Source: Liolophura sinensis
Taxonomy: Eukaryota > Mollusca > Polyplacophora > Chitonida > Chitonidae
DNA: 64,000 bases
Direction: 5' to 3'
Assembly (NCBI RefSeq): GCF_032854445.1
Contig: NC_088306.1
Location: 10,192,193 to 10,256,192 of the forward strand
Shown here: positions 31,201 to 63,630 of the stretch, in pieces
Numbering within the stretch: position 1 is the first letter of the stretch
How the letters are laid out: every line of letters begins with the position of its first letter
Made by a program: the position numbers and the translations under genes
Notes under the pieces: model-generated
What the model was told of the DNA's origin: nothing
The model's input: the letters and a program-made list of their open reading frames with translations, nothing else
Databases searched by the model: none

Positions 31201-34200
31201 CAGTGTTAGGTGCACAGAGATGCTTTGTTTACGTGGTAAATACTCCATTGTCTTAAGTCATATGCAGTCCACCTTGATGATCCATCTATGAGTAACACAT
31301 TTTTCATGACATGAAATCTGACATGTTTTGTCATAGATTTTATGACGTATTTGTGAAACTTTGCTTTCAGACGTGACATGAAGAGACATTTCGTTAGTTG
31401 TTGTTATAAATTTTTGATGAAATCTACTAATATTAATTAGTAGGTATGAAAGATACACTAGTTTATCTTGGTGTCAGGAGATATCATTACTAATTCTCAC
31501 GTAATTGTCATAAATTGTAAACAGTACATTCATCTCTGTGGCTTCTTTGGGGCCTCTTTGGCTCAGTTCGTAGGGTAATGACCCTGGAGTCACTTACAGA
31601 TGTTTTTGCTGTGAGTTCAAGTCCAGCTTATGCTGGCTTCCTCTCTAGCGGTAAGTGAGAATGTCTTGCAGCAACCTGCGGACGGTCGTAGGTTTCCCGG
31701 GGCTCTGCCCGGTTTCCGCCCACCATAATGCTGTCATATAAGTGAAATATTCCTGAGTACGGCGTAAAACACCATTCAGGAAAATAAATAAATAAATCTC
31801 TGTGTCTGATTCTTTTTTAATGATATGTTCTTTTTGGAATAAGTATTGTTTTAAAGCAAAAATCAGTGTATGTGTTTGTGAGAGAAAAAAAAACAAAAAT
31901 GTCCAAAATGCTTGTTTTTAGATAAAGTGTTGTATTCTTGATTCCTTTCTAGCAACTTTACTCCAACATTGTTGAAGCAGCCTGGCCCAGTACTACAGAT
32001 GATGCAGAAGTATTACAAGATGGCAGCATACGGTTGACATCACAGGATGAGTTTGCTAGTCTCGTTTTCTCTCCTCACGGGCGAGATTTCACTGTCTGCT
32101 ACCTCTCCAAAACCAGCACCTGTCCTCCGTCTTCCCAGCTGGCAATACCAAAACGGCAGCATAGCAGTCCTGTGGAAACTCGAGTTAGACATGTGTCAGC
32201 AGGGAGTAACTCTGGTGTTTCTGATAAGTCAGATGGCAGCTTTAAGTTACCAGGGAAACCATCTAAAAGGAAAGGGAGCAGTAGGCGGAAACACAAAGGC
32301 TCTCAGTTTGGCAGCTTGACGGTAGAGCCTTCAGCGACATCCGCTTTTGTGGCCATTGTACCAGCGCAGCGCCCGCATCAGCATCGACGGCAGTCCAGTA
32401 ATCCTCGGTACTCAGACGGAGAAAGCAGCTCTCACTCTGTTCAGAGTTATGATTCGTTGACATCGTCGATAGAAGACGAGCTTTGCTCAAGCTATCACGA
32501 TCTCAACATCCAAGCTGCCTCAAAGTCCCGGCAAAATCCCAGCGCTGCTACCTCAAGTGTTCTAAAATCCCGTCCTCAAGGTCGCCGTGGTAACCAGGAG
32601 AACTTCTGTCCTCATGTCTCCCCCGGTGTTAGTCCAATTAGCAAAGATCTCAGCCCGCTACACACAGGTACGGCATGGTGCTCGATAGATGGCGGTGCTT
32701 CTGGAGAGAACCAATCAAAATGCAGACAGTATTATTGCTGGGTAACTCAGCATGTGTCATGTTCGGACTGCCCCCGATACTGGGAGCACCCTGCCCGGCT
32801 TGTTCAGGAGAAGTGGCGAAAACTGCAAGCTCAGGCTGATGATTCAGGTATATATGCAAAAATACATTGATTTTTTTCGTGTGATTGGTGTCGTCAAGAA
32901 GTTTTCATTGACATGACAGGGTTCAGGTTTATGGGTGTGGGAGTTTCACTGATATGACAGTGTTCAGGTTTATGGGTGTGGGAGTTTCATTGATATGACA
33001 GGGTTCAGGTTTATGGGTGGGGGAGTTTCATTGATTTGACAGGGTTCAGGCTTATGGGTGTGGGAGTTTCATTGACATGACAGGGTTCAGGTTTATGGGT
33101 GTGGGAGTTTCATTGATATGACAGGGTTCAGGTTTACGGGTGGGGGAGTTTCATTGACCTGACAAGGTTCAGGTTTATGGGTGGATGAGTTTCATTGACA
33201 TGACAGGGCTCAGGTTTATGGGTGGCTAAGTTTCATTGACATGACAGGGTTCAGGTTTATGGGTGTGGGAGTTTCATTGACATGACAGTTTTCAGGTTTA
33301 TGGGTGGGGGAGTTTCACTGATATGACAGGGCTCAGGTTTATGGGTATGGGAGTTTCATTGATATGACAGGGTTCAGGTTTACGGGTGGGGGAGTTTCAT
33401 TGATTTGACAGGGTTCATTTTTATGGGTGTGGGAGTTTCATTGACATGACAGGGTTCAGGTTTATGGGTGGGTGAGTTTCATTGATATGACAGGGTTCAG
33501 GTTTACAGGTGGGTGAGTTTCATTGATATGACAGTGTTCAGGTTTATGGGTGTGGGAGTTTCATTGACATGACAGGGTTCAGGTTTATGGGTGTGGGAGT
33601 TTCATTGTTATGACAGGGTTTAGGTTTATGGGTGTGGGAGTTTCATTGACATGACCGTGTTTAGGTTTATGGGTGTGGGAGTTTCATTGACATGACAGGG
33701 TTCAGGTTTACAGGTGTGGGAGTTTCATTGTTATGACAGGGTTTAGGTTTATGGGCGTGGGAGTTTCATTGACTTGACAGGGTTCAGATTTATGGGTGTG
33801 GGAGTTTCATTGACATGACAGGGTTCAGGTTTATGGGTGTGGGAGTTTCATTGACATGACAGGGTTTAGGTTTACAGGTGGGGGAGTTTCATTGTTATGA
33901 CAGGGTTCAGGTTTATGGGTGTGGGAGTTTCATTGACATGACAGGGTTCAGGTTTATGGGTTTGGGAGTTTCATTGACATGACAGGGTTCAGGTTTATGG
34001 GTGTGGGAGTTTCATTATTATGACAGTTTTCAGGTTTATTAGCCTGAAGAAAATTGTGTAACATTGTATTAAATATGAACTAAAGCTGCTGCTGTTATAC
34101 TTTGTCTTTGGAAATAATACAGGTGTAACACCCAGTATTAGCTAATAGATTTTTGAACAGCTGGGGCCATTACTTGATTGGTGAAGGACTGTGTAATCGC

Positions 34201-37200
34201 ATTTAGATATCTCTTTAGATCATGTGAGCCAAGGAGGCCTCGAGATGTTGCTTTAAATGGAACCACTGTAGATGAAAAACTGCACTGTCAGCAGTATTGA
34301 TAATTCTTGTGACTTTTTGTCAGTAGCTGATTCATCTTATATTTGTTCGGGGCGGTTGCTGCGAGTTCAGTCCAGCTCACGCTGACCTTGTTTCCAGTCG
34401 TACCTCTGGCAGCATATGGTCATGGGTTTCCCCCCGGCTCTGCCCGCTTTCCTCCCACCATTATGCTGGTCACCGTCATACAAGTGAAATATTCTTGAGT
34501 AGGTGTGAAACAACAATCGAATAAATAAATAAATATATTTGTTCCATCAGGTGAAGTGAATTGTCTTTTAATTTGCGTATTGCTTTTTAAAGGTAAATGC
34601 CTTCAACTCAAAGATTAGGCATGAAGTATACACTGTGTAGAAATTAGCTTAAATCATTGATAATGGATAGACAAAACAATCAATATTTCAATTTCAGATT
34701 AATTACCATCGTTATTAGTGGAATGATATAGAAGTCATGTGGTCAGCATTTCTTTGGTTGTTTGCTTTGAATCAGTTGCAATAATTCATGAGGTTTTTTC
34801 ATGAGGCATTTCACTTCCCAGATCATGAGAAAGAAACCAATGGCAGTGACCCATCCAGTCTATCATGTGGTCAAAGGGACACAATCCAGAATGATGACAA
34901 AAGTCAAGTTTGCATGTGTGAATTACCTCCCCCTGTTGCACTGACCTGCCCTGGACAACACCTGCACTCCTGGTCACCATCTACTGACATAGACCTCAAG
35001 GGAAAGGTCAAAGTTGTCATGTCCGAAGGGGTTATTTATAGGTAAATCATAAAAGTTCATTGACTTAGACATGTAAGTGTGGAAATGGGAACAGGAAATT
35101 TCAACATTTGTTCATCTCATAAAGTTCTCTTATAATCACTATATCAGACATGGCTTTCATAGCTCAAAGTCATCCTTGTCTTGCATATGGCTCCAAGGTG
35201 GGTATTTCACAAAGTTTGTAAAAAAAACAGCTATGAAATAAAGATGAAACAATGTATGATGAATGAAGCATTGTGACAAATCACTTATTCATCGTCAATA
35301 TATTTTGGAATAAAAAAAAGTTTATTCATTGAAGAATTTTCAACACAGTTTGAGAAATCCAGCACTGGAAAGCTGCTCCTTAGATGAATTTGTTCAGGGG
35401 AGATAATTGTAGTGTTCAGGGTGTCACATACTCCTCAGAGCAATGGAACCACTCTTTAAGTTGCCACTGCTAGCAAATTTTGCACAGATATCTTGAACAA
35501 TGCCACGGTCACTGGGGTCACGGTGAGGAGGCATAAGATGATATCAGAAAGCTTAAAAATCTGTATCTCAACAACTGTTTCTGTCAATACTTGATGGACA
35601 TGCATTGTGTCTATCTGAAGTTTACACAGCATGATTCTGACTGACACACAATTAAAACTAAATCTACCGTGAAGTGTAAACAAGCCTGTCAAAGGTCAAG
35701 TTTATGACAGTAATGTGAAGCAAGCGCTGTAAGGACTAATGGCATGTAATGGCTGGCGTCATGGCTGGTGTCATGGCTGGTGTCATGACTAGAACTCAAG
35801 AGCGCTCACATTGGTGAGAAGCTCATGGAACATTGTGCTGTGCTAGCACACTAAACCACTAGGTCACGCAGTTCTGTAATAAACACATAAATATCTGGCT
35901 GCACTTTCAGAAGTATTCTGAAAAGTGGAGAAAACCTAAAAATTACTTCAAGGCTGGATGAAAGAGTGTGAAAATGTGGTCTTCAACATTTGTTTTGATT
36001 TTTCTTTAGAGAGAAAGAGACCTGTGAAAATATTTTTCGTACAGTGGGTATTTGGGTTTATGTTGTCTTTGTGTAATAATGTTATTAGCGAAGATATAAC
36101 ACATGTTTAATATTTATGTCTGCACTAGAATTTGGTCTTTTTAGTCAACAAATATATTCAACTTGGATTTTGGTCATGGTTATATTTTAATATATTCATA
36201 AATACTATCACAATTCATATTAAACACATGTGTTTGGTTATAAACAAAAAAAAATTTACATTGAAATAAATTAATAAGACATGCTTCTTATCCTTATTTA
36301 GAACATTATTATGCAAAGATGACATTTTCCAAGAGGTGGATCCAAATAACTACCATACAAAAATATTTACAAGTTTTTTTTCAGTATTTTTATGTTTTGT
36401 TCTCCTTCATGTACAACTGTATGTGCATATAGTGCATTGCAGGGGCTGTATTTCATCAACCAAAAGTACGTGTTAAAGTCACATTTCATGTTTGCTCTTA
36501 AAAACTGGCTTTGTTAAGTACCTCCGATCCTGATGCAAAGGGTGGTGAGAAAGTAACATGTGTCACTTATGAAACAAGCATTAAAACTTTTTATTATGTG
36601 TGCATAAACCCAATCAACAGTTAGGGGGTCTCAGGAGTTCATGCAGATTTAGTCGCCACTGGGCGGAGTTTCTTGAAAACTACCACAGCTAAAAGACGGG
36701 ATTTTACAGTATGTGTCAGCAGCATCGTTGAGTTGATGGACAGATGCTCATCCAGTCACGGCTTTTACCAACGTTAGTTTACTTTAGCCCTTTCTTTGTC
36801 TTGTCTTTATCTGGGTGAACTTGTGAGTCCCCTTTGTATGCCGATTGGGCTTATTTACTATGTTTTTCTCCGTGATACGTGTTTGTAGACTTGTTGGCAG
36901 CTCTTCCTTACATCAAGTGGAGATTTACCCGGGAGATAACTCTGTCCTCACATCCCAGGGCCTCACAGGCCATTTCTTCCTTCACATCATACCAAGGGCA
37001 GACAACCCAGCAGTAAGTAAATGTGATCTGGCTCACATTTGTAGCTCATACTTATGAATGGATATTAAACAAAGTCTGTTTCATGTGTTTTGAAATTCCA
37101 TTTCTCATTTTGAAGATGCATCTCTTTTTGATACTGGGCAAATCTTACTTTAGTTCGTGAGTCTGCCTTAAAGGGACTTACCTTAACGTCAGACACTGTG

Positions 37201-40200
37201 TAGTGTTGTAATTACTTGGTTTACCATGTAACTTTAGTTCTGCTGTGCAAATCGTTGGCAAATTACGAATACTTTATAAAGCATTATTGATAGATAAAAA
37301 GATCATATTTGGTTTACTAGAGTTTCAATCTATTGGATAGTTAACATGTGCAGTCCACGAGAGAATGTTGCATTATGGGAATCCTTGCAGTGCCTAATTT
37401 GCATGTTATCCTGTCAGGTGGACAGTTTAGACCAGTAAACTGTCACAGTATGACAGTTTTTGTTGATTTATTTCTCACAGTATGACAGTTTCTGTTGATT
37501 TATTTCTCACAGTATGACAGTTTTTGTTGATTTATTTCTCACATTTATGACAGTTTTTGCTGATTTATTTCTCACAGTGTGACAGTTTCTGTTGATTTAT
37601 TTCTCACATTTATGACAGTTTCTGTTGATTTATTTCTCACAGTGTGACAGTTTTTGTTGATTTATTTCTCACAGTATGACAGTTTTTGTTGATTTATTTC
37701 TCACATTTATGACAGTTTTTTTTGATTTATTTCTCACTGTGTGACAGTTTTTGTTGATTTATTTCTCACAGTATGACAGTTTCTGTTGATTTATTTCTCA
37801 CATTTATGACAGTTTTTGTTGATTTATTTCTCACAGTATGACAGTTTTTGTTGATTTATTTCTCACTGTGTGACAGTTTCTGTTGATTTATTTCTCACAT
37901 TTATGACAGTTTCTGTTGATTTATTTCTCACAGTGTGACAGTTTTTGTTGATTTATTTCTCACAGTATGACAGTTTTTGTTGATTTATTTCTCACATTTA
38001 TGACAGTTTTTTTTTATTTATTTCTCACTGTGTGACAGTTTTTGTTGATTTATTTCTCACAGTATGACAGTTTCTGTTGATTTATTTCTCACATTTATGA
38101 CAGTTTTTGTTGATTTATTTCTCACATTTATGACAGTTTTTGTTGATTTATTTCTCACAGTATGACAATTTCTGTTGATTTATTTCTCACATTTATGACA
38201 GTTTTTGTGGATTTATTTCTCACTGTGTGACAGTTTTTGTCGATTTATTTCTCACATTTGTGACATACTGTCATATTTTGAGAAATAAATGAACACAGAC
38301 AGTGTACTATTCCTTGATACTCGTGGATAAAACTCTTGACATTTTTGTGACATTTTTCAAGAGTTATTATATAAAAAAAACTAATTGATGTACTGTTTGT
38401 TGCAGGCGTACCTGGTGGAAGAGAAAACTTACTCTGTGAAAGTCCCTCCTCAGGATTTCCCCGGGGAGGCGTACTCCCTGGCCAAGCTCATCAGTAAAGG
38501 AGCGCAGTACTTAGCCACCTGTGACGTGGATGTCCAGTTTAAATCCCATGCTGAAGTTTTCTGCTGGAAGGTCTGATAGCCCTCTGAAACTGTGATGATT
38601 TAAGAGAGCTAGTACCATATTGTTTCTACTAAATGTGGAATGTAGCTGATATAGTAAAGTGTGAAATCACCTTATAACCAGAAACCCAGCTCGGATTATA
38701 CCAAAGATTTTAAAAAATGGTACTTGCGAGCAAGGAAATAGGACTGGTGTCAGTATATTGAAATAGGACTGGTGTCAGTATATTGAAATAGGACTGGTGT
38801 CAGTATATTCAAATAGGACTGGTGTCAGTATATTCAAATAGGACTGGTGTCAGTATATTGAAATAGGACTGGTGTCAGTATATTCAAATAGGACTGGTGT
38901 CAGTATATTCAAATAGGACTGGTGTCAGTATATTGTGACTGGGTGGGGCCTCATGTCTGGTTAGTGGTGGCAGCACTTTGGTGGCATGGAGGCGCCCTGC
39001 CACGAGAAGGCACAGTATGTACATGCACCTAATGACTTCTCATGGTCGTATTTCTGAAAAATTGTGAAGTACAATTTCATACATATACTAACATGTACAT
39101 ATACATACCTAATAACCAGGCACACAAAGTTCAGGTTCAGTCCCGGCCTTGGTCTGGGAATTCATAGTCATGGGGTTACCAGTCTGCCTGTCTGTCTGTC
39201 TGCCTGCATGTCTGTCTGTCTGTCTGCCTGCATGTCTGTCTGTCTGCCTGCCTGTCTGTCTGTCTGCCTGCATGTCCATCCAAGTGAATGGGTGAATTGC
39301 AACACCATTGTTACAGGGACTCCCTGTTTTCAGGGCTATCTATATTGCAGATATGGAGGAAAAGAAGAGGTTTTGGGGAATCCCTGCCCAGACAAAATTA
39401 CCAATCTCATGCACATTTTGGCTCACCTCCTGTTTATAGATTTCCTTACTCATAAATGCCTGGCTGAAAAGACTTTTAAAAATCGAAGTAGGCAGCTCTA
39501 TGTAGACAACATAAAGCTATGCATAAATATACTTGCATTTATTTTTTTTTTTTTTGTGATTTTTGTGGAAAGAGTTGTGAAACACTTGAATTCTAAGGTG
39601 GACTTTATGGCCCATACTATCGGAGCTTAAGGAGGTGAAGTCATAGAAAATTTTTCCTACTCAAATCACGACACTGAATGTTGGAATAACTGTTCTTACC
39701 CATGAGTTAAAGATAATAGATATAATGTAAAAAAAAAGGTGATGTGACGTCAGAGATTCTAGATAATTGTCAGTATGGCTCATAAACCCCACAGTAGTAT
39801 TCAAATATTTGAATACCTTTCAACACTTTTAGCAAAAAAATCTGAAAAAAATAAACATAAGTATTTTTTCACATAGTTTTCAGTTGTCTGTATGATGAAC
39901 CTTACTTCACATTTTAGCTTTCTTTTACTTTAAGTTATGACAACATGTTGGGAATGACTGTCTTGCAGGTGTTTACATAATCGTCTGTTCATTGAAGACC
40001 ATCCACCTGTATGACAGGCAAGTCTGTACATTAGTCGAAGGAAAGTCTCTCAGTGGCTTGCCAGAGATTGTTGGTTTTACTCAGGGCACTCTGTCTCCCT
40101 CCACAGAACACATAAAACTCACAGCTATCCTACATGTAAAGAAAAAGTTCTGGGCTCACCCAAAGTATGGGATAAAGCAACAAAATCAAATAAATAAATA

Positions 40201-43200
40201 TACAGACCTATGACATACCTTCAACCTGTTAACGGGAGTGAGTGTCTTCGGTTTCCTCCCACCATTACGCTGGCTGCCGTTGTATAAGTGAAGTATTAAC
40301 ACCAATCAAATAAATAAATAAAAATAAGATACCTTAGACCAGAGAGCGCTGTGTTCCCACAGTATGTTGATATTCACAACTTCATATATGGACACCTCTT
40401 GTTAAATCACAAGAATACATGTTATTTTGAAATCGATGTCAAACACCTTACCTTGCGTGTACAAACGAGTCCTGCCATAAAGACTCTCCATATTGCAGAG
40501 GAGAAAATAGAAGAAAATACCTAAATAAATAATATTTTTTGTTTTTGTTTGTTACAGTACAACCAGGAGAAAACTGCGCCTAACATCTCTGAAGCACGGT
40601 CAACGGTGAAATGTGAACATAACATTCCAGGCTTGGGCAAATTCCTGGCTTATACGAATGGAAAGATTAGAATCGTATTTGCTGACCGGACAGCCCTGGA
40701 CATGATGTCAGAGAGCTGTAAGGATGGAAGTCCTTCTGGTTCCTATGGCGATGGAGATGGCTCACAGCCAAAGGTACAGCTTCAAGATTTGATTTTTAGC
40801 TCACGGTTTTTAGGCACAGCTTACGTAATACCCCTAGCATGATGTGAGTATGAATGCTTCAGGTTTAACGCCATACTCAACACAAGTTTTCAGTTGCATG
40901 CTGAAGTTTCATGCCAAAGACAAAAGACAAAGACACTGTTTCCTTGTTCTAACCTCTCAGTGCTGAGCGCCAAGCAGCAAGTACCATTTTTAAAGTCTTT
41001 GCTCTGACCAGAACTCTCGCTTGCGCAAAGTAGAGGGCTGCAGTGCCCCGCCCCTCTCAACATGCACTCTGCCCCCCTAGAGGGCAGGGCTGTAAATAAC
41101 AGCCCTGCCCTTCGTAGGGCTAATGAGACTTATTAACCAGAGGCCCCTGTCTGGCCAGACTGTAGTTATCCTGTCTGCTTGTTGTTAACTATACCTGGTA
41201 CCGGAAATCCGCCATCATAACTTCTGTTTGTAATCAAGCACTGGTTCATTTTATTAACTATGTGTGTTTTAAGCTCAGCAGTGCCTACATTAAGCTGTCG
41301 CGCTTAATTTTCTGTCTTCTGGCCATCATAAATTTGTTACGAAATCAATTCACACATGGTGGTTAGGTGGCAAAAGTATCCCACCATAGTTGTTTTATAG
41401 TCTATAATTAGAACAGTGATGCTCATTGGACATTAGTCTCGATTGCACCAATGGGTAAACCGGTTAGAAATGCATACATAACAGCCTCGTTTTCATTACT
41501 TTCATTTTTCAGTCAAGTCCGTCAAATTGGTCCTGTCAGATAATAAAGCGTTTGTAGACTCATTATTTGTTTAAAATTAAGAGTAGAACAGGCTGCAGAT
41601 TACCGCAAATTATTAAGATTAGGCAAGTTCAGAGTATTTTTGATTTGTTAAGTTGTTTAAGCTCAGCTGTTTCTCAGCTGAAGAACCGACCACCAGTTGG
41701 GCCAGTATCGGTTCTCTGTTTGTTTTGATTCACTTTTTCGTTGAGAAAACATTCATGGTTATAAATTATTGTTGATTTCAAGTCAGAGACCTGGTACAAG
41801 CATAATACTGGAATAAGCAGTCTTGTGAAATAGGAAGTTTTACCTCAATGGGCCATATTTTCATTTTCCTCCATCAGATTTCCGTTTTTATGCTAGGTGG
41901 GCATTCAGTCGTGGATTTAAATGGGTGGAAAATGGGGCACAGTCAACATTTTCATGATTTTTGTTAACTTTACATAGTGTTTTAATTAAACAATAATATG
42001 TCTAGAATTATGAGTTTTCGTATATTTTGGTAAATAAAAATTCAAAGTACCCATTTTGAATAATAAGAGAGTTGCCTTTATTTTTATAACAAAGTCTCAA
42101 GTTTTTATGGAGTATGCATACACACATATTGCAGACAGGCGTCATATTTTATTGACAATTTCAAGACAAAATTATCTTATCTTATTTAGTCACGAACTAC
42201 ATCTAGCATCTGTAACCAATGTCTGTAATTTAAAATCAGTAGTAAACCTTTTTTTTACTAGTTATTTTTAATGATCAATAGTTTTATTAATTATTTGCTT
42301 TGCCTGTTTGGGATAATACCCTAAAGCAGGAAACACTTGCTGTGAACACACACTCTGCAATTCTTCTATTTTTTGGGACATTTTGCCTGGTTTTGATAAC
42401 CAGTATGCCCTGTAGTTGCAAAAGGGATATATATTTTTCCCCACATGGTTAGTACATTCAAGGAATAACATATAATTGGTCTTTACTTCTCTGAAAAACT
42501 GAGAATTGCAATTTTCTGCTTTAATCACTTCCAAGTAACATATCCTGAAAATTAGAAGGGTTACAGGATACAAATGTGTAGTTGAGTGTTGAGGTGGCTA
42601 TTTTNNNNNNNNNNNNNNNNNNNNNNNNNNNNNNNNNNNNNNNNNNNNNNNNNNNNNNNNNNNNNNNNNNNNNNNNNNNNNNNNNNNNNNNNNNNNNNNN
42701 NNNNNNNNNNNNNNNNNNNNNNNNNNNNNNNNNNNNNNNNNNNNNNNNNNNNNNNNNNNNNNNNNNNNNNNNNNNNNNNNNNNNNNNNNNNNNNNNNNNN
42801 NNNNTTTTTACTGCTAAATCTCTTTTGAATATTTATTTACCACATTCATTATTAAAGACGCAAGCAGGAAATAGTGCACTTTAAAGGTATTATTCGCACT
42901 GAAAAGTGCCCCGTTTGGAAAAATTCCACCCTGCCCATTTTTGTTTAAAAATAGGGGCCTGGTAATGATTGGGCAACCAATGTGGTACCCCAAGGCATTA
43001 GCATTGACATGAAATAACATGTAAAACACAATGGCAGGAGAGAGATGTTCCATCGTTGAGGCCTTATAGGCATATGAATAAATGTTAATTACAAATTCTT
43101 GATTTTAGCCTCAAGTTTATATTCAGTATTAAGTTTCCAAGTGTATAATTTATATTTTAGGGTCAAGTGAATCTAAACAGTACTACAATGTGATGACATG

Positions 43201-46200
43201 AGTAGGAATGGCACAACTCGATGAGGTTGTTGATGTTTTGTCAAAGCTATATTACTCTCTCTCTTCTAAAACATAGGCAGTGTCGGCTGTCAAGATGTTT
43301 GATTGATACCTGGTGATGCAGTTATTTTTCCTTTGATTTACTGTTTTTTGGGGTTTTTTTTTTCATCCAAAAACCTGTCAACCATCTAGTAAATAAAATA
43401 CATGTATGGTAAAATGATTGGTCAGTTCCTTATGGTCAGGCTGCTCATGATAAGGTCTGACAGCAACATGCAGATAATCGTGGGTTTCCCCAGTGCTCTG
43501 CCAGGTTTCCTTCCACCATAATGTTGTCCACAGTTGTAGAAGTGAAATATTTTTGAGTGCGATGTAAAACACGTAAACAAATAAACAAATACATCAATCA
43601 GTCAGTCAGTCAGTTTTATTATTGTCTGTTTATAACTTTTATATACCGTTCTGGTACTATTATTAAACGTTGTTAAACATGACTAAATTACTGATGTTGT
43701 ACAATGCCAGGTGACATGTGACAGTGTTTACCGCAGCCAGAAGGCCCGGGTGTGGGGTGAATTAATCCCCGCCGGTCACTGCCGCCTCCTCCTGCCCTCG
43801 GGGCAGTACACCCTGGTCAAGCTTAGCAGCCCTGGTCCGTACAAAACGTAAGTATCTTTGTGTAGCCACCCTCTGGCAGTGTAGTCCAATCACATGGAAT
43901 TGAATGGCTAAGTTAACAAGAAATATATGCTTTCCAAGCAGTCTCTTCAAGTGTGTTCAGACAAGTTTAGGCTAGAGATAAGAGATAACATAGAGATAAG
44001 GAAGGGACTCTCCCAAACTAATGCGACTTACAGTAGTTGCTAACGTTGCCAGTGTAAAGCCGACAGACCTGATTATGCAAAATATATATTCAATGAAGCA
44101 GCTACAGTGTGACAGCTCCCACCTCGTCTTGCCCGAACCAGCTTGAACTGGTGCGATTTCCCGAAATGCTCATTCACCTTATTCACACATCACCTGTTTT
44201 TTTTTCCCCCTTCAACTAAGCACCCTTCCATTCTATAGTTCAGACAGCAGGGTGATTAGATGACAATAAATTCCATGAATTTCTAAATGATGGATTCTGT
44301 ATGTAATACCTCTGTCTGAATCTTCAGGTGTGTGGATTATGCTCTGGAGTGGTGTGCCTGGTGTAATACACCTGTCAGAGATAGGACTCAGTTCTACGCC
44401 AATGCCACCCTCCCCAACTCCTCCAGAGATGTGTAAGTGGAAAACAGTATTTTTTTGATTTCTGTTTTAAGTTTTTTCTATTTTACTTTTATGTCCTAAT
44501 ATGCACTGAATCAGAGAATTTCACGGTATTGGTGCTAGTTTGAGTTGAGTTATGTTTGCGGATAGCCTAGGGGAGTTTTGAGCTTGAACTCTTTTATTGA
44601 TAGAGGTAGAAAAAGTCCCAACTGTGCCGTGTGACCTGTCAAAATTGTTATGCAACTATTTTTGATCACTCATACTGTAACATGGGTGTCCTTAAAAAGT
44701 TTAGAGTAGACGTGTGATGAAGAAAATTGAGAAGCTGAACGTTTTATGAACTAGAGAAGCTCCCAAAGGAAAGAGGTATTATTTGTGCCTCAGGAAAAGG
44801 ATGAGACAGGTGATCAATAAATTAATGTCAACAAAGGTGGCCTGACATTTTTCACAAGTCACATGGCACAGTAGGACTATTTTTACCTCTGATGACAAAA
44901 GAGTTTCAACACGAACCTCCCCTATTGGCAAGCATGGGATCATGTTTACCATCAGCAGTGTAAAGATGTTATTTATATTTTTTCATTTATTTGATTGTTC
45001 TTTACGTCACACTGAAGAATTTATTTTTCAGTCAGTATAGTTGGTAGATGAAACCAGAGTGCCGTGGAAAAATCACCCACCTGTGGCTAGTTCCTGGTGA
45101 ACTTCACACATGTGACAGTACAAATAAGCACACCTCTTTGGTGGAAGACAAAATGTTGGGCTCCACAAACAACCACATGGGTGCTGGTGATGGCAAGTGG
45201 CCACGAAGACTCTTTTGAATGAAAAGCAAGCACCTTCAACCCTTTAGGCCGTGGCCCACTCCTTATAATACCCTTAGTATTTATCTTATTAGAACTGTTT
45301 TTATGGTTGAAAGGCATTTGCCGTAGAAAGTGACCGGCCCGGTTCTTAGAGTGTCCGCTTTGGGAGTTGGTAGGTCCAGGGCCTATCCTGGTCACACCTG
45401 AGATCTTAAAAGAGGAAGTTGTAGCTTCCTTGCTTGACGTTCAGCATTTAGAGGATAGTGCAGCGACTGGTTGACCGTATTAGTATAATGGCTCGGACGA
45501 GGCGGCTTACTTGCCTTCGGTAAGCTGTCTCAGTGAAGCAGCACTGGATAATAGAGGGGTGGAAATACTCCTTCGTCATCATATGACTGAAAAATTGTTA
45601 AGTACGATGTTAAACCCCAAGCACTCACTCACTCTATAGAAAGTGTTGTTTCAAGTTAAATGCTCCAAATCAACAACGTTCATGTTTTTTTTTTGTTTTT
45701 TTTTTAATAGAGATGGTAATAAATAGTGGATATGATGAAAATGATAATTAAAATATAATTTAAATATTCAAACATCGAGTACTACGTAGAATACATACGT
45801 CACACAAACAAATCGAAAAGTAAATAAAATCCAAGAGTTGTAATTGTCTCTCTATTTTTGGTTTCCTGCAGATCTCCTGATACCGAGTTAAGGAAAATCA
45901 ACTGCTTTAACTGTATCCTTTGCGACTTTATACTGTAACCATGGTTGTGGTGCTTGTCTTGTAAGGCTTGTTATGGTGTTCTAGTGGCACTTTTCTGTAA
46001 CAATGTGTATTCTCCATTGCCTATCCGTTACACCAAGTCAGTTATGTTTTTTACAGTTTATTGTCTATTTGTCTGTCAGCTTTGTGGTTGTGTTTATTCG
46101 TCCACCACACGCTGTCAGTTACATTCTTGTCTGTGTATTCTTCATCTTCTAGTTTTCACCATTGTCTAGTTATCACCATTGGCGAGTTATCACCATTGCC

Positions 46201-49200
46201 TAGTTATCACCATCATCTGGTTATCACCATTGTCTAGTTATCACCATTGCCTAGCTATCACCATTGCCTAGTTATCACCATTGTCTAGTTATCACCATTG
46301 CCTGGTTATCACCGTTGTCTAGTTATCACCGTTATCTAGTTATCACCGTTGCCTAGTTATCACCATTGTCTAGCTATCACCCAATATCCAGCGGATTCTT
46401 TGCTATTTAACTCCCTTTGTGTGGCATGCAGCACCCTGTGTTGGCATTCTTCGTCATTCTCTCCCCATCGTCTGTTATTCCAGGTCTATTCCATTCTTTG
46501 TTCTCTATTATTCATTCTCCATCCTGTGCTGATTGCATTCTTCGTCATTCTCTCCCCATCTGTTATCCCAGGTCTATTCCATTCTTTGTTCTCTATTATT
46601 CATTCTCTATCCTGTGCTGATTGCATTCTTTGTCATTCTCTCCCCATCGTCTGTTATCCCAGGTCTGTTCCATTCTTTGTTCTCTATTATTCATTCTCCA
46701 TCCTGTGCTGATTGCATTCTTTGTCATTCACTCCCCATGGTCTGTTATGCCAGGTCTGTTCCATTCTTTGTTCTCTGTTATTCATTCTCTGTCCTGTGCT
46801 GATTGCATTCTTTGTCATTCACTCCCCATGGTCTGTTATCCAGGTCTATTCCATTCTTTGTTCTCTATTATTCATTCTCCATCCTGTGCTGATTGCATTC
46901 TATGTCATTCTCTCCCTATCGTCTGTTATCCCAGGTCTATTCCATTCTTTGTTCTCTATTATTCATTCTCCATCCTGTGCTGATTGCATTCGTTGTCATT
47001 CACTCCCTATCGTTTGTTATTCCAGGTCTATTCCATTCTTTGTTCTCTATTATTCATTCTCCATCCTGTGCTGATTGCATTCTTTGTCATTCACTCCCCA
47101 TCGTCTGTTATGCCAGGTCTGTTCCATTCTTTGTTCTCTGTTATTCATTCTCCATCCTGTGCTGATTGCATTCTTTGTCATTCACTCCCCATGGTCTGTT
47201 ATCCCAGGTCTATTCCATTCTTTGTTCTCTATTATTCATTCTCCATCCTGTGCTGATTGCATTCTTTGTCATTCACTCCCCATCATCTGTTATCCCAGGT
47301 CTGTTCCATTCTTTCTTCTCTGTTATTCATTCTCTGTCCTATGCTGATTGCATTCTTTGTCATTCACGCCCCATCGTCTATTATGCCAGGTCTATTCCAT
47401 TCTTTGTTCTCTATTATTCATTCTCTATCCTGTGCTGATTGCATTCTTCGTCATTCACTCCCCATGGTCTGTTATTCCAGGTCTATTCCATTCTTTGTTC
47501 TCTGTTATTCATTCTCCATCCTGTGCTGATTGCATTCTTTGTCATTCACTCCCCATGGTCTGTTATTCCAGGTCTATTCCATTCTTTGTTCTCTATTATT
47601 CATTCTCCATCCTGTGCTGATTGCATTCTTTGTCATTCACTCCCCATGGTCTGTTATTCCAGGTCTATTCCATTCTTTGTTCTCTATCATTCATTCTCCA
47701 TCCTGTGCTGATTGCATTCTTTGTCATTCACTCCCCATGGTCTGTTATTCCAGGTCTATTCCATTCTTTGTTCTCTATTATTCATTCTCCATCCTGTGCT
47801 GATTGCATTCTTTGTCATTCTCTCCCCATCGTCTGTTATCCCAGGTCTATTCCATTCTTTGTTCTCTATTATTCATTCTCCATCCTGTGCTGATTGCATT
47901 CTTTGTCATTCACTCCCCATCGTCTATTATGCCAGGTCTGTTCCATTCTTTGTTCTCTATTATTCATTCTCCATCCTGTGCTGATTGCATTCTTTGTCAT
48001 TCACTCCCCATCGTCTGTTATGCCAGGTCTATTCCATTCTTTGTTCTCTGTTATTCATTCTCTGTCCTGTGCTGATTGCATTCTTTGTCATTCACTCCCC
48101 ATGGTCTGTTATCCCAGGTCTATTCCATTCTTTGTTCTCTATTATTCATTCTCCATCCTGTGCTGATTGCATTCTATGTCATTCTCTCCCTATCGTCTGT
48201 TATCCCAGGTCTATTCCATTCTTTGTTCTCTATTATTCATTCTCCATCCTGTGCTGATTGCATTCGTTGTCATTCACTCCCTATCGTTTGTTATCCCAGG
48301 CCTATTCCATTCTTTGTTCTCTATTATTCATTCTCCATCCTGTGCTGATTGCATTCTTTGTCATTCACTCCCCATCGTCTGTTATGCCAGGTCTGTTCCA
48401 TTCTTTCTTCTCTGTTATTCATTCTCTGTCCTGTGCTGATTGCATTCTTTGTCATTCACTCCCCATGGTCTGTTATCCCAGGTCTATTCCATTCTTTCTT
48501 CTCTATTATTCATTCTCCATCCTGTGCTGATTGCATTCTATGTCATTCTCTCCCTATCGTCTGTTATCCCAGGTCTATTCCATTCTTTGTTCTCTATTAT
48601 TCATTCTCCATCCTGTGCTGATTGCATTCGTTGTCATTCACTCCCTATCGTTTGTTATTCCAGGTCTATTCCATTCTTTGTTCTCTATTATTCATTCTCC
48701 ATCCTGTGCTGATTGCATTCTTTGTCATTCACTCCCCATCGTCTGTTATGCCAGGTCTGTTCCATTCTTTGTTCTCTGTTATTCATTCTCCATCCTGTGC
48801 TGATTGCATTCTTTGTCATTCACTCCCCATGGTCTGTTATCCCAGGTCTATTCCATTCTTTGTTCTCTATTATTCATTCTCCATCCTGTGCTGATTGCAT
48901 TCTTTGTCATTCACTCCCCATCATCTGTTATCCCAGGTCTGTTCCATTCTTTCTTCTCTGTTATTCATTCTCTGTCCTATGCTGATTGCATTCTTTGTCA
49001 TTCACGCCCCATCGTCTATTATGCCAGGTCTATTCCATTCTTTGTTCTCTATTATTCATTCTCTATCCTGTGCTGATTGCATTCTTCGTCATTCACTCCC
49101 CATGGTCTGTTATTCCAGGTCTATTCCATTCTTTGTTCTCTGTTATTCATTCTCCATCCTGTGCTGATTGCATTCTTTGTCATTCACTCCCCATGGTCTG

Positions 49201-52200
49201 TTATTCCAGGTCTATTCCATTCTTTGTTCTCTATTATTCATTCTCCATCCTGTGCTGATTGCATTCTTTGTCATTCACTCCCCATGGTCTGTTATTCCAG
49301 GTCTATTCCATTCTTTGTTCTCTATCATTCATTCTCCATCCTGTGCTGATTGCATTCTTTGTCATTCACTCCCCATGGTCTGTTATTCCAGGTCTATTCC
49401 ATTCTTTGTTCTCTATTATTCATTCTCCATCCTGTGCTGATTGCATTCTTTGTCATTCTCTCCCCATCGTCTGTTATCCCAGGTCTATTCCATTCTTTGT
49501 TCTCTATTATTCATTCTCCATCCTGTGCTGATTGCATTCTTTGTCATTCACTCCCCATCGTCTATTATGCCAGGTCTGTTCCATTCTTTGTTCTCTATTA
49601 TTCATTCTCCATCCTGTGCTGATTGCATTCTTTGTCATTCACTCCCCATCGTCTGTTATGCCAGGTCTGTTCCATTCTTTGTTCTCTGTTATTCATTCTC
49701 TGTCCTGTGCTGATTGCATTCTTTGTCATTCACTCCCCATGGTCTGTTATCCCAGGTCTATTCCATTCTTTGTTCTCTATTATTCATTCTCCATCCTGTG
49801 CTGATTGCATTCTATGTCATTCTCTCCCTATCGTCTGTTATCCCAGGTCTATTCCATTCTTTGTTCTCTATTATTCATTCTCCATCCTGTGCTGATTGCA
49901 TTCGTTGTCATTCACTCCCTATCGTTTGTTATTCCAGGTCTATTCCATTCTTTGTTCTCTATTATTCATTCTCCATCCTGTGCTGATTGCATTCTTTGTC
50001 ATTCACTCCCCATCGTCTGTTATGCCAGGTCTGTTCCATTCTTTGTTCTCTGTTATTCATTCTCTGTCCTGTGCTGATTGCATTCTTTGTCATTCTCTCC
50101 CCATGGTCTGTTATCCCAGGTCTATTCCATTCTTTGTTCTCTATTATTCATTCTCCATCCTGTGCTGATTGCATTCTTTGTCATTCACTCCCCATCATCT
50201 GTTATCCCAGGTCTGTTCCATTCTTTGTTCTCTGTTATTCATTCTCTGTCCTATGCTGATTGCATTCTTTGTCATTCACGCCCCATCGTCTATTATGCCA
50301 GGTCTATTCCATTCTTTGTTCTCTATTATTCATTCTCTATCCTGTGCTGATTGCATTCTTCGTCATTCACTCCCCATGGTCTGTTATTCCAGGTCTATTC
50401 CATTCTTTGTTCTCTATTATTCATTCTCCATCCTGTGCTGATTGCATTCTTTGTCATTCACTCCCCATCGTCTGTTATCCCAGGTCTATTCCATTCTTTG
50501 TCCTCTATTATTCATTCTCCATCCTGTGCTGATTGCATTCTTTGTCATTCACTCCCCATCATCTGTTATCCCAGGTCTGTTCCATTCTTTCTTCTCTGTT
50601 ATTCATTCTCTGTCCTATGCTGATTGCATTCTTTGTCATTCACGCCCCATCGTCTATTATGCCAGGTCTATTCCATTCTTTGTTCTCTATTATTCATTCT
50701 CCATCCTGTGCTGATTGCATTCTTTGTCATTCTCTCCCCATCGTCTATTATGCCAGGTCTGTTCCATTCTTTGTTCTCTATTATTCATTCTCTATCCTGT
50801 GCTGATTGCATTCTTTGTCATTCTCTCCCAATGGTCTGTTATTTCAGGTCTATTCCATTCTTTGTTCTCTATTATTCATTCTCCATCCTGTGCTGATTGC
50901 ATTCTTTGTCATTCTCTCCCCATCGTCTGTTATCCCAGGTCTATTCCATTCTTTGTTCTCTATTATTCATTCTCCATCCTGTGCTGATTGCATTCGTTGT
51001 CATTCACTCCCTATCGTTTGTTATTCCAGGTCTATTCCATTCTTTGTTCTCTATTATTCATTCTCCATCCTGTGCTGATTGCATTCTTTGTCATTCACTC
51101 CCCATCGTCTGTTATGCCAGGTCTGTTCCATTCTTTCTTCTCTGTTATTCATTCTCTGTCCTGTGCTGATTGCATTCTTTGTCATTCTCTCCCCATGGTC
51201 TGTTATCCCAGGTCTATTCCATTCTTTGTTCTCTATTATTCATTCTCCATCCTGTGCTGATTGCATTCTTTGTCATTCACTCCCCATCATCTGTTATCCC
51301 AGGTCTGTTCCATTCTTTGTTCTCTGTTATTCATTCTCTGTCCTATGCTGATTGCATTCTTTGTCATTCACGCCCCATCGTCTATTATGCCAGGTCTATT
51401 CCATTCTTTGTTCTCTATTATTCATTCTCTATCCTGTGCTGATTGCATTCTTTGTCATTCACTCCCCATGGTCTGTTATTCCAGGTCTATTCCATTCTTT
51501 GTTCTCTATTATTCATTCTCCATCCTGTGCTGATTGCATTCTTTGTCATTCACTCCCCATGGTCTGTTATCCCAGGTCTATTCCATTCTTTGTCCTCTAT
51601 TATTCATTCTCCATCCTGTGCTGATTGCATTCTTTGTCATTCCACTCCCCATCATCTGTTATCCCAGGTCTGTTCCATTCTTTCTTCTCTGTTATTCATT
51701 CTCTGTCCTATGCTGATTGCATTCTTTGTCATTCACGCCCCATCGTCTATTATGCCAGGTCTATTCCATTCTTTGTTCTCTATTATTCATTCTCCATCCT
51801 GTGCTGATTGCATTCTTTGTCATTCTTCCCCATCGTCTATTATGCCAGGTCTGTTTCCATTCTTTGTTCTCTATTATTCATTCTCTATCCTGTGCTGATT
51901 GCATTCTTTGTCATTCTCTCCCAATGGTCTGTTATTTCAGGTCTATTCCATTCTTTGTTCTCTATTATTCATTCCTCCATCCTGTGCTGATTGCATTCTT
52001 TGTCATTCTCTCCCCATCGTCTGTTATCCCAGGTCTATTCCATTCTTTCTTCTCTATTATTCATTCTCTATCCTGTGCTGATTGCATTCTATGTCATTTC
52101 TCTCCCCATCGTCTTGTTATCCCAGGCCTATTCCATTCTTTGTTCTCTATTATTTATTCTCTGTCCTGTGCTGATTGCATTCTTTGTTGTTTATTCTGCA

Positions 52201-53123
52201 CTGTGTAGTGTACCCTGTCAGTATATTATAGCTGTCATTATAATTATAGCTTTCTATTTCCGAAGATCGAAAAATATTCTGTTAACATCCTACTTTTCCT
52301 GCACAAAATTCCTATACTTACACTATGTGTTTTGTCCAAAGTGGGCTGAGATCCCTGTTCTGGTTATCCAAATACTGTCACTGGTTGTCTGAGACATTAT
52401 ATGTGGTGTCCAAGACATCATATTTGGTGTCCGAGACATCATATGTGGTGTCCGAGACATCATATGTGGTTGTCCGAGACATCATATGTGGTGTGCGAGA
52501 CATCAAACACGTATGTGGTGTCCGGGGACATCGCATGTGGTGTCCGAGACATCATACACATATGTGGTGTCCTAGGACATCACATGTGGTGTCTGAGACA
52601 TCATATGTGGTGTTCGAGACATCATACACGTATGTGGTGTCCAGAAATGCTGTAAATGTTGCAGTATTGAAACCGCCTTTTTGTAGGATATAGCTTTGTG
52701 ACCATGTCAAATAATTTTGACCCCAAAATAAAAAAGTTCAAATGATATAATGTAGATTTAGCAATGTGGCATGAATTAAAACTATAAACCAACAAACAGT
52801 CCGAATCTGAATATTGAGTTATTTAATCTGGATATGTCAAAATGAAACTGATTATTGAGTGACTTAACTCTGATATCTTAGATGTTGTGGAGAACACTGT
52901 TTTGAAACACCAGAGCCTTGGGGTGGGCCCCTCGGGAGATGGTTGCCGTTTTGCTCCTCTTGACGGACTCTGCTACAGGACCTCAGATGCCCCTTCAGTC
53001 ACAACTTCCACAAACAGTTCCGACAACGATCAGATTAAGAGTTTTGATGACGTACGCAGAGCCCTTCAGAAAACGTCCAGGGTTATCAGTGATATCGATT
53101 CCTTGTTGTCCGCACGCAAGTAA
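28222..53123 (+). CDS. C5orf34: C5orf34 homologue (DUF4524/DUF4520-type), eleven coding exons, complete
   Basis: Coding exons: 28222-28369, 31045-31184, 31953-32847, 34822-35041, 36889-37012, 38406-38570, 40558-40773, 43711-43847, 44328-44432, 45872-45912, 52882-53123. Every junction keeps phase; the sum is 2433 nt, giving 810 residues and TAA. The N-terminus (EVRYSDGSRLELSPCGS, ALDFRNRF, EAAWPS) matches the conserved start of vertebrate C5orf34. Exon 3 adds a long Ser/Arg-rich, probably disordered stretch. Exons 4-9 carry the second conserved region (cysteine- and aromatic-rich). The C-terminus (FDDVRRALQKTSRVISDID) looks helical. Molecular function is unknown. It is longer than the human protein (about 640 aa), mainly through the disordered middle. 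Intron 6 has a poor donor (GTCTGA), the last intron is U12-type, and an N gap lies in intron 7. Exon 10 is only 41 bp and is the least certain. Confidence 0.9.
28775..28924 (-). mobile_element. SINE family A copy with 14-bp target-site duplication
   Basis: Reverse copy with tail complement, core, and a truncated head. Exact 14-bp repeats ACTTTGTTATAGTA lie at 28761-28774 and 28925-28938. In C5orf34 intron 1. Confidence 0.92.
29005..30590. repeat. 45-bp minisatellite, about 34 copies
   Basis: Unit of 45 bp containing ATAGGATTCCACCAGCATGC, AGAATGCTTAGCTTACAAC and TTAGAA. Variants alternate (ACGTGGAAA, TTAAAAATA, CTTACC) and multi-unit patterns recur. In C5orf34 intron 1. The multiple-of-three unit leaves frames of 433 and 348 codons open on +; they lack start context, splice logic or compositional variety and are not genes. 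Confidence 0.96.
30608..30872 (+). mobile_element. SINE family B copy
   Basis: Starts where the 45-bp array ends. Head GTAGATCCAGGGTCAAATCC, body GGAGTTGCAGCTTCC and CGTATCAGTATAATGCC, end CCCCAAGCACTCACTCACTC. Internal deletion near the 3' end. In C5orf34 intron 1. Confidence 0.85.
31541..31795 (+). mobile_element. SINE family A copy, full length
   Basis: The tRNA-like head (CCTCTTTGGCTCAG, GTGAGTTCAAGTCC), core and (AAATA)n tail are all present. Direct repeats ATCTCTGTG lie at 31532-31540 and 31796-31804. In C5orf34 intron 2. Confidence 0.9.
32905..34040. repeat. 41-bp minisatellite, about 27 copies
   Basis: Unit of 41 bp (TGACATGACAGGGTTCAGG, TTTATGGGTGTGGGAGTTTC). In C5orf34 intron 3, starting about 60 bp after exon 3. 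Confidence 0.95.
34349..34533 (+). mobile_element. SINE family A copy with 11-bp target-site duplication
   Basis: Partial head (GCGAGTTCAGTCCAGC), core and tail. Direct repeats TATATTTGTTC at 34338-34348 and 34534-34544. In C5orf34 intron 3. Confidence 0.9.
35042..36888. other. C5orf34 intron 4, mostly unique sequence
   Basis: A short threefold repeat (ATGGCTGGCGTC-like) at about 35745-35785, and a SINE A head fragment on the - strand at about 35788-35873 (CAAGAGCGCTCACATTGG, TAGCACACTAAACC). Otherwise nothing recognised. Confidence 0.5.
37435..38285. repeat. 32/33-bp minisatellite, about 26 copies
   Basis: Unit TATGACAGTTTTTGTTGATT then TATTTCTCACAG, with a 33-bp variant ending CACATT. In C5orf34 intron 5, ending about 120 bp before the exon at 38406. 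Each unit reads like a branch point, pyrimidine tract and acceptor on the sense strand. Confidence 0.95.
38733..38935. repeat. 25-bp minisatellite, 8 copies
   Basis: Near-identical 25-bp units (GGACTGGTGTCAGTATATTG plus AAATA, with a TTC variant). In C5orf34 intron 6. Confidence 0.93.
39180..39275. repeat. CTGT/CTGC tetranucleotide microsatellite
   Basis: Runs of CTGTCTGTCTGC with CATG interruptions. The preceding GGTTCAGTCCCGGCC looks like a tRNA B box, so a further SINE may end here. Confidence 0.85.
40245..40323 (+). mobile_element. SINE family A 3' fragment
   Basis: GGTTTCCTCCCACCATTACG to ACCAATCAAATAAATAAATA. Only the 3' part remains. Another tail remnant (AAATCAAATAAATAAATA) lies at about 40185-40202. 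Confidence 0.75.
40774..42604. other. C5orf34 intron 7, left of the assembly gap
   Basis: Unique sequence apart from a GC-rich patch near 41020-41115 with a perfect hairpin (41081-41111). No exon or known element seen. Confidence 0.5.
41081..41111. other. GC-rich perfect inverted repeat (13-bp arms, 5-base loop)
   Basis: AGGGCAGGGCTGT, loop AAATA, ACAGCCCTGCCCT. Pairing can extend outward imperfectly (CCCCCCTA against TAGGGC). It stands out in an AT-rich intron and could be a small foldback element or hairpin RNA source. No function is claimed. Confidence 0.8.
42605..42804. other. Assembly gap of exactly 200 N
   Basis: The round size shows a scaffold join of unknown true length. C5orf34 exons 7 and 8 on either side join in frame, so order and orientation across the gap are supported by the gene. 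Confidence 0.99.
43453..43592 (+). mobile_element. SINE family A copy, diverged
   Basis: CAGCAACATGCAGATAATCG, GTTTCCTTCCACCATAATG, ATATTTTTGAGTGCGATG and an (ACAAATA)n tail. In C5orf34 intron 7. Confidence 0.78.
44985..45260 (-). mobile_element. SINE family C copy
   Basis: Reverse copy: tail complement CATTTATTTGATTGTTC, then GAAACCAGAGTGCCGTGG, matching the family C body at 22440-22490. The head side is near 45245. In C5orf34 intron 9. Confidence 0.65.
45330..45635 (+). mobile_element. SINE family B copy
   Basis: Head with GTAGGTCCAGGGCCTATCC, body AAAGAGGAAGTTGTAGC and TATTAGTATAATGGC, end ATTGTTAAGTACGATG, CCCCAAGCACTCACTCACTC. In C5orf34 intron 9. Confidence 0.85.
46148..46385. repeat. 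17-bp minisatellite
   Basis: About 14 units of TAGTTATCACCATTGCC, with TGTC, CGTT and CATC variants. In the last C5orf34 intron, just before the 91-bp satellite. Confidence 0.9.
46425..52195. repeat. 91-bp satellite, about 63 copies, with higher-order structure
   Basis: Unit of 91 bp with CAGGTCTATTCCATTCTTTG, TTCTCTATTATTCATTCTCC, ATCCTGTGCTGATTGCATTC and TTTGTCATTCACTCCCCATC. Units are highly alike, differing at a few variable sites (TCACTC/TCTCTC, CATGGT/CATCGT, ATCCC/ATTCC/ATGCC). Variant order repeats at 1638 bp (18 units): translations beginning at 46893 and 48531, and at 47257 and 48895, are identical. Shorter 14- and 12-unit block shifts occur further right. The 90-codon open frames every 91 bp are artefacts of one TGA per unit. 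Single-base indels cluster in the last six units. Confidence 0.98.
52383..52640. repeat. 21-bp minisatellite
   Basis: About 11 units of ATGTGGTGTCCGAGACATCA plus T, some with a 5-6 bp ACACGT insertion. It ends about 240 bp before the last C5orf34 exon. Confidence 0.9.
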
Positions 53124-62658: not shown

Positions 62659-63630
62659 CTGAAAGGGCAAGCAACGATAACTCATGTGCGACTTGTTGGT
62701 CTATGTTCTGTGCTTCGTAAGCTTTTGCCCTCTACACGTGGTGCGGGGGACCGGATATAAAATTTCTTTTCTGATAAGTTGTCTGTGAGGAGCTGCTTCC
62801 GCAAAACATACAGTGATAATCGTTTTTCACATAAGTCTGTGGTGGCTGGAACATTTCACGCTTTTGTTTATGTCCATTAATATCCTTTTTAAAAAATCAC
62901 TTAAATTTTGACTTCGTTTATCTCTCTCTGTATCCTCCTCATGAGTTTACTTTAGCATTTCTCATATTGCTGCATGTAGTCAATGTCAATGCCGGCATAA
63001 TAACAATGCTATCTTACTGGAATGTCAATGTTGAAAGACACCCGGCTTGAACCTACATCAGACACTGTGTAGGCCACTGACACCAGGCCACCGGTAGTAA
63101 GAATGTCTGTTATTCAGAGTGGTAGGTCTGGATTACAGGAAATGTTAACGTCCCTGGCATTACATAGATCTGGACTCAACTTTTCAGTTTTAGCGATTTA
63201 GCTTCAGAAAGAGGTTGTGCAAAGATTAGTAGTCTGTTGTAATCAGAAGTACGGGCTGGGGAATTGAACCAGTGATCTCTTAGAGTCCAGCCCACACGTT
63301 CACCAGTGGAGTAAAGGGAAATTCCCTCCAGGCCAGAGGTTGATAACGCTAATATCATATCAGTAAGAGTATAAAGAGTGGCTATGGATGAAATCAGCCT
63401 ATTGGAACTGTTCATCTTTTATATAGCTGAAATCACACCTTTATCTATTCAGTGTTTTGGAGCAGCCTGAGATTTTACTTATCTTCTGTACGTTTTGTGG
63501 TACAGCTCAGCCATAGGTCTAGTTGGATGTTAAGAACGGTTAGTCCTTTACTGGTATGTCTATCCGTCCGTCATTCCGTATAAAAACACCTTGTGTTTTT
63601 TTTTCGTAACTATTCAACATGTTTGATTGA
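62659..63630. other. DUF885 gene intron, nothing certain
   Basis: Unique sequence. On the - strand at about 63240-63320 a degenerate tRNA-like stretch occurs (CTCCACTGGTGAA, then GGTTCAATTCCCCAGCCC), probably an old SINE head or tRNA pseudogene. Confidence 0.4.

Follow-up and report, generated by a model that had tools for sequence, protein, structure and literature searches.

A probable U12-type intron in the C5orf34 homologue of the chiton Liolophura sinensis, expanded by a diverged minisatellite

The last intron of the C5orf34 homologue of Liolophura sinensis (intron 10, 6969 nt) is very probably a true intron of the rare U12 (minor) type that has been inflated by local amplification of a dispersed 47-bp minisatellite, the resulting array most likely being a passenger. 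Positions below are those of the window, by which we mean the whole stretch of 64,000 nucleotides that was analysed. A preliminary description of this DNA had called the gene a C5orf34 homologue with matching exon phases, and had given it an intron of about 7 kb, mostly 91-bp satellite, with a U12-consensus donor and a branch site about 14 bases from the acceptor. All of these points are borne out here: the predicted product carries four C5orf34-type Pfam domains, all over cut-off and in order, intron 10 is in phase 1 in a full 11-exon model, its donor matches the consensus at 9/9 positions and its branch site has a CTTAAC core with the A at 14 nt, and the 91-bp array (46444-52187) fills most of its length.

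The C5orf34 homologue and its exons

The spliced gene model has 11 exons and 2421 nt and encodes 806 amino acids, with one stop codon, at the very end, and GT-AG ends in all ten introns. Its features, with those of intron 10, are as follows.

28222-53123, + strand: coding part of the C5orf34 homologue, a single open frame
28222-28369, 31045-31184 and 31953-32847, + strand: exons 1-3 (gene model)
34822-35041, 36901-37012 and 38406-38570, + strand: exons 4-6 (gene model)
40558-40773, 43711-43847 and 44328-44432, + strand: exons 7-9 (gene model)
45872-45912, + strand: exon 10, 41 bp, with U2-type acceptor TTTCCTGCAG upstream and predicted U12-type donor downstream (frame continuity)
45913-52881, + strand: intron 10, 6969 nt, phase 1, joining exons 10 and 11
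45913-45921, + strand: predicted U12-type 5' splice site GTATCCTTT, 9/9 match to consensus
52860-52869, + strand: TGACTTAACT, predicted branch site of U12 type (7/9 match, CTTAAC core), with the branch A at 52867
52880-52881, + strand: acceptor AG of intron 10 (gene model and splice signals)
52882-53123, + strand: exon 11, the last, with the stop codon; frame open from exon 10, phase 1

The 806-amino acid product matches PF15025, PF22833, PF22834 and PF15016, each over almost the whole length of the domain; the domains lie in the order C5orf34-like_N, C5orf34_2nd, Polo_box_4 and C5orf34_C, with 94.9, 53.1, 69.8 and 66.5 bits, respectively (cut-off 27 for each). When nine single frames of the window were scanned against Pfam, six matched one or another of these domains (one of them below cut-off), and the other three, including the frame of the last exon, had no Pfam match. 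A search of the genome with the PF15016 profile gave one match. The assignment of the host gene as a C5orf34 homologue is thus supported by its sequence. The exon 10/exon 11 junction lies downstream of the last Pfam domain, so the support for this junction comes from the frame (phase 1) and the splice signals; the last exon may resemble the C terminus of human C5orf34. A run of 200 N within intron 7 (42605-42804) is either a gap in the assembly or a stretch that was withheld.

Splice signals and the class of intron 10

Splice sites were scored against the donor consensus RTATCCTTT and the branch consensus TTCCTTRAC; the scoring covered the donors of eight of the ten introns (1-3 and 6-10) and the acceptors of introns 1-3, 5, 6 and 8-10. 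The donor of intron 10 is the sole 9/9 match among the 8163 GT sites on both strands of the window (nine sites reach 8/9), and the donors of the seven other introns score 3 to 5 of 9. The 9-mer is insufficiently rare by itself, since a second RTATCCTTT is present on the + strand at 62880 (ATATCCTTT, which has the form of an AT-AC U12 donor) and shuffled + strands contain it 1.03 times on average (60 shuffles). At the other end of the intron the branch site, TGACTTAAC, matches at 7/9 positions with CTTAAC intact, and its A lies 14 nt upstream of the G that ends the acceptor AG. Of the 7586 AG sites of the window, 267 have a branch site scoring at least 7/9 at the tested distance, AG 52880-52881 being the sole one of these within intron 10; just 17 of the 7586 have CTTAAC at -24 to -8. 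A 9/9 donor at the frame-joining site together with a branch core at its partner acceptor is hard to obtain by chance. U12-type introns are expected to have no polypyrimidine tract ahead of the AG; the pyrimidine content at positions -20 to -4 of the intron 10 acceptor is 65%, within the range of seven real U2 acceptors of the gene (59-82%).

Pairing energies were calculated with the U11 and U6atac RNAs of this genome and with the U1 5' end. The intron 10 donor pairs better with U11 (-5.3 kcal/mol) and U6atac (-6.5 kcal/mol) than with U1 (-1.3 kcal/mol). Its U6atac pairing is the best of the eight donors tested in the gene (+3.1 to -2.3 kcal/mol at the seven others) and its U1 pairing the weakest (-4.3 to -11.6 kcal/mol at the seven others). 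Two of the pairings do not discriminate between intron 10 and the U2 introns of the gene, namely that with U11 (-0.1 to -7.2 at the U2 introns) and that of the branch site with U12 (-5.9 at intron 10, -3.4 to -6.6 at the U2 introns). The 609-Mb genome contains genes for U12, U11, U6atac and U4atac, all over the Rfam cut-offs, with five matches for U12 (four over cut-off), two each for U11 and U6atac, and one for U4atac.

Could intron 10 be a U2-type intron, or one spliced by both machineries, that resembles a U12-type intron by chance? PMC10853781 lists certain human introns with GTATCCT-like donors as misclassified U2-type introns, and a RTATCCTTT is expected about once per strand, as noted above. 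In the same source, AG precedes the donor in four of the six table rows examined, whereas exon 10 ends in ...AACT, which places CT before the donor with no G at exon position -1, and GT-AG U12 introns are described there as biased against G at this position. The weak U1 pairing and the scarcity of CTTAAC cores placed like that of the partner acceptor likewise argue against a U2-type intron, and we regard this explanation as highly improbable. The predicted U12-type class of intron 10 is well supported by sequence, and the intron is probably functional; the minor spliceosome would remove it using GTATCCTTT as donor and, as branch site, the CTTAAC core whose A lies 14 nt upstream of the last base of the acceptor AG.

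Proposed origin of the repeats in intron 10

Three tandem arrays together occupy 6235 of the 6969 nt of intron 10 (89%), and a degraded unit of the 47-bp family lies to the left of the largest.

46148-46381, + strand: 17-bp tandem array, 13.8 copies (tandem-array scan)
46360-46420, + strand: degraded 47-bp family unit, left of the 91-bp array (nhmmer E 1.4e-4)
46444-52187, + strand: 91-bp array, 63.1 copies, 93% matches, apparently a diverged dimer of the 47-bp family
52386-52642, + strand: 21-bp tandem array, about 11 copies

When the genome was searched with two 91-bp units, 88 matches were obtained, which comprise the array itself and at least 15 other places with 67-78% identity. One of these relatives, used as query, yielded 184 matches, and those listed include at least 14 further places; the two lists rest on 17 and 40 scored candidates, respectively, and are lower bounds. 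Tandem Repeats Finder reports a 47-bp period at 14 of the 15 related loci, and at the remaining one (L027) it reports no array, yet two short 47-bp family matches are present. Aligned to a dimer of the 47-bp unit, the 91-bp consensus is identical in 70 of 94 columns, and the alignment scores 91, versus at most 27 in 500 shuffles. The 91-bp unit thus corresponds to two diverged units of a dispersed 47-bp minisatellite. The commonest long exact duplication inside the array is 1638 bp, or 18 units.

The 47-bp period at the relatives, the dimer alignment, the degraded unit on the left and the 18-unit duplications together suggest a stepwise origin of the array. The dispersed family would have deposited units in intron 10, the two halves of one two-unit copy would have diverged, and this 91-bp copy would then have been amplified locally in steps, by unequal exchange and block duplication, expanding the intron from about 0.7 kb to 7 kb; this order of events is what we infer. 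Dispersed minisatellite families are a known kind of repeat in animal genomes. The present one is like them in that its 47-bp unit recurs at many loci and shows local homogenisation along with higher-order duplication; the intron 10 copy differs, its repeat unit being a 91-bp dimer.

We considered whether a transposon carries the array, and rejected this, as no common flank stands at a fixed place in the masked flanks of the 15 family loci (best 80 of 348 matches). The same best 80 of 348 flank matches are mostly to a dispersed repeat of about 260 bp, whose distance and orientation vary, and include matches between L018 and L019, which are mutual copies. The repeat of about 260 bp lies near many of the family arrays (L024 7405-7672, with similar stretches in L015-L018, L020 and L023), and the two mutual copies are about 41 kb apart on C7, with 47-bp family arrays that stand head-to-head. 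Another dispersed repeat, SINE-like by eye and ending in ACTCACTCACTC, is present in intron 9 (45330-45640) and has matches in 3 of the 15 family loci and in 5 of 10 control loci; the idea that it is the repeat of about 260 bp was rejected, as it fails to match the stretch in question. The 15 family loci contain 302 open frames of at least 60 amino acids, and a Pfam search of ten of these gave one match over cut-off, a laminin EGF exon in L016 that lies 2.6 kb past the main array and 0.8 kb past a second piece, in the same orientation.

Possible decoy splice sites and the relation of the array to its intron

The U12 signals are at the two ends of intron 10, outside the array, so the array is most likely a passenger, and probably a neutral one. 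Parts of its sequence resemble splice sites. One half of the 91-bp unit has CAG (CCCAGG) where the family consensus has CAT (CCCATG). The notion that AG is unique to the intron 10 array was rejected, its 11.0 AG per kb being ordinary among 16 arrays (0.5 to 30.2). We scored acceptor-like sites with a strict, home-made filter (70% pyrimidine, a YAG without another AG shortly before it, and a yTnAy branch). On the sense strand 59 of 63 AGs of the array pass this filter, which only one of seven real U2 acceptors passes when tested at the right base; this is 10.3 sites per kb, compared with 1.06 per kb (62 sites) on the + strand outside the array and none on the antisense strand of the array. The array also contains 18 CAGGTCTGT donor-like sites with a U1 energy of -6 or better, as have three of the seven real U2 donors tested; none reaches -7 or better, and intron 10 outside the array has no donor at -6 or better. 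Two other arrays of the window are rich in donor-like sites with a U1 energy of -7 or better. An 85-bp array at 1-1909 (22.7 copies) has 23 of them, about one per unit and on the + strand only, of which GAGGTAAGT is the commonest (14 of 23), and a 63-bp array at 17645-21108 (55 copies) has 45 on the - strand, 40 of them with GAGGTGGGT.

In the accepted scheme U12 donors are not joined to U2 acceptors, so it is the U2 donor of exon 9 that would make the decoys a risk, by skipping exon 10 and joining into the array. If this happened when minor splicing is weak, the acceptor-like sites would compete with normal splicing in a manner dependent on copy number, and an exonised 91-nt unit would change the reading frame. 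Such an effect would fit the concentration of acceptor-like sites on the sense strand and the 18 donor-like sites, and PMC8329584 describes cryptic U2 sites near U12 introns that become active upon failure of minor splicing. The array donors, however, do not reach -7, the filter is an ad hoc one that most real acceptors of the gene fail, and similar densities elsewhere speak against a special role, both in other family arrays (L020, 10.2 per kb, 7 sites; L025, 8.9 per kb, 17 sites) and in the following array of the same gene.

37443-38265, + strand: array of 97/65-bp period in U2 intron 5, whose sense strand has 10 acceptor-like sites (12.2 per kb); it stands 140 nt upstream of the true acceptor (38405)

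The preliminary description had also argued that splicing may be sensitive to the length of the array, and this is not supported as stated, since mouse data are partly against it. According to PMC6717393, 150 retained minor introns of the mouse are shorter than 467 that are never retained (a point against competition by the array), alternatively spliced minor introns are longer (a point in its favour), and an Arabidopsis minor intron was spliced more efficiently once lengthened. In PMC10639083, the median length of minor introns tracks that of major introns across species and is 4019 bp in the fly Hermetia illucens, so 7 kb is not necessarily an extreme length for a minor intron of an invertebrate. 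On balance, an effect of the array on splicing seems unlikely. A further candidate function is that of a sponge, in which the pyrimidine-rich array RNA would bind a PTB-like protein. The array contains 317 YTCTYY/YYTCTY motifs (the PTB motif), or 55 per kb versus 4.8 per kb on the + strand outside it; base composition accounts for most of them (278 +/- 20 in 50 single-base shuffles), and the sponge is extremely improbable.

The word "host" in the preliminary description suggests a special relation between array and intron that the data do not bear out, given the dispersed family and the arrays in four U2 introns of the same gene, which take up 59% of intron 1, 58% of intron 3, 823 of 1393 nt of intron 5 and 10% of intron 6. 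Five of the ten introns, counting intron 10, contain arrays. Tandem arrays make up 35% of the window and 4 to 53% (mean 17%) of ten 8-kb genome samples placed at arbitrary round coordinates. Nothing was found in support of a tie between the array and the U12 class, and a single U12 intron cannot show an association. More speculatively, U12 introns might shelter repeats with a likeness to U2 3' splice sites: as a U12 donor is normally not joined to a U2 acceptor, a decoy array (one per 91 bp) could grow freely there, would be selected against in U2 introns, and could later turn into a trap, its strength set by copy number, wherever minor splicing is limiting. We consider this very improbable, and the array of U2 intron 5 speaks against a tolerance of decoy acceptors specific to U12 introns.

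Intron 10, then, read as a U12-type intron with a passenger array, combines two known things in an unusual way and is not a new system. It is like other U12-type GT-AG introns in its donor, its branch core, its branch-to-AG distance and the presence of the snRNAs in the genome, and it differs in being 89% tandem repeats. The IFI6 (6-16) minisatellite, reportedly described by Turri in 1995 as having multiple splice donor sites, is similar in that its repeat units carry splice signals. The IFI6 units are used as donors, whereas those of the chiton only resemble acceptors in sequence; PMC4526556 likewise has the minisatellite supply multiple splice donor sites. Kilobase-long minor introns are known as well (PMC10639083). 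Our literature search, mostly judged by title, yielded no paper that connects minor introns with minisatellites or satellites in this way and none naming C5orf34 together with "U12-type" or "minor spliceosome", and the main text of PMC6717393 mentions no C5orf34 minor intron. Our findings add a probable minor intron to C5orf34, a polo-box-domain gene without such an intron in the literature searched. Intron 10 also offers a natural setting in which to ask whether minor splicing is disturbed by the growth of repeats and by decoy U2 acceptors, and if it were true genome-wide that decoys are tolerated in U12 but not in U2 introns, this would amount to a new restriction on the places open to satellites.
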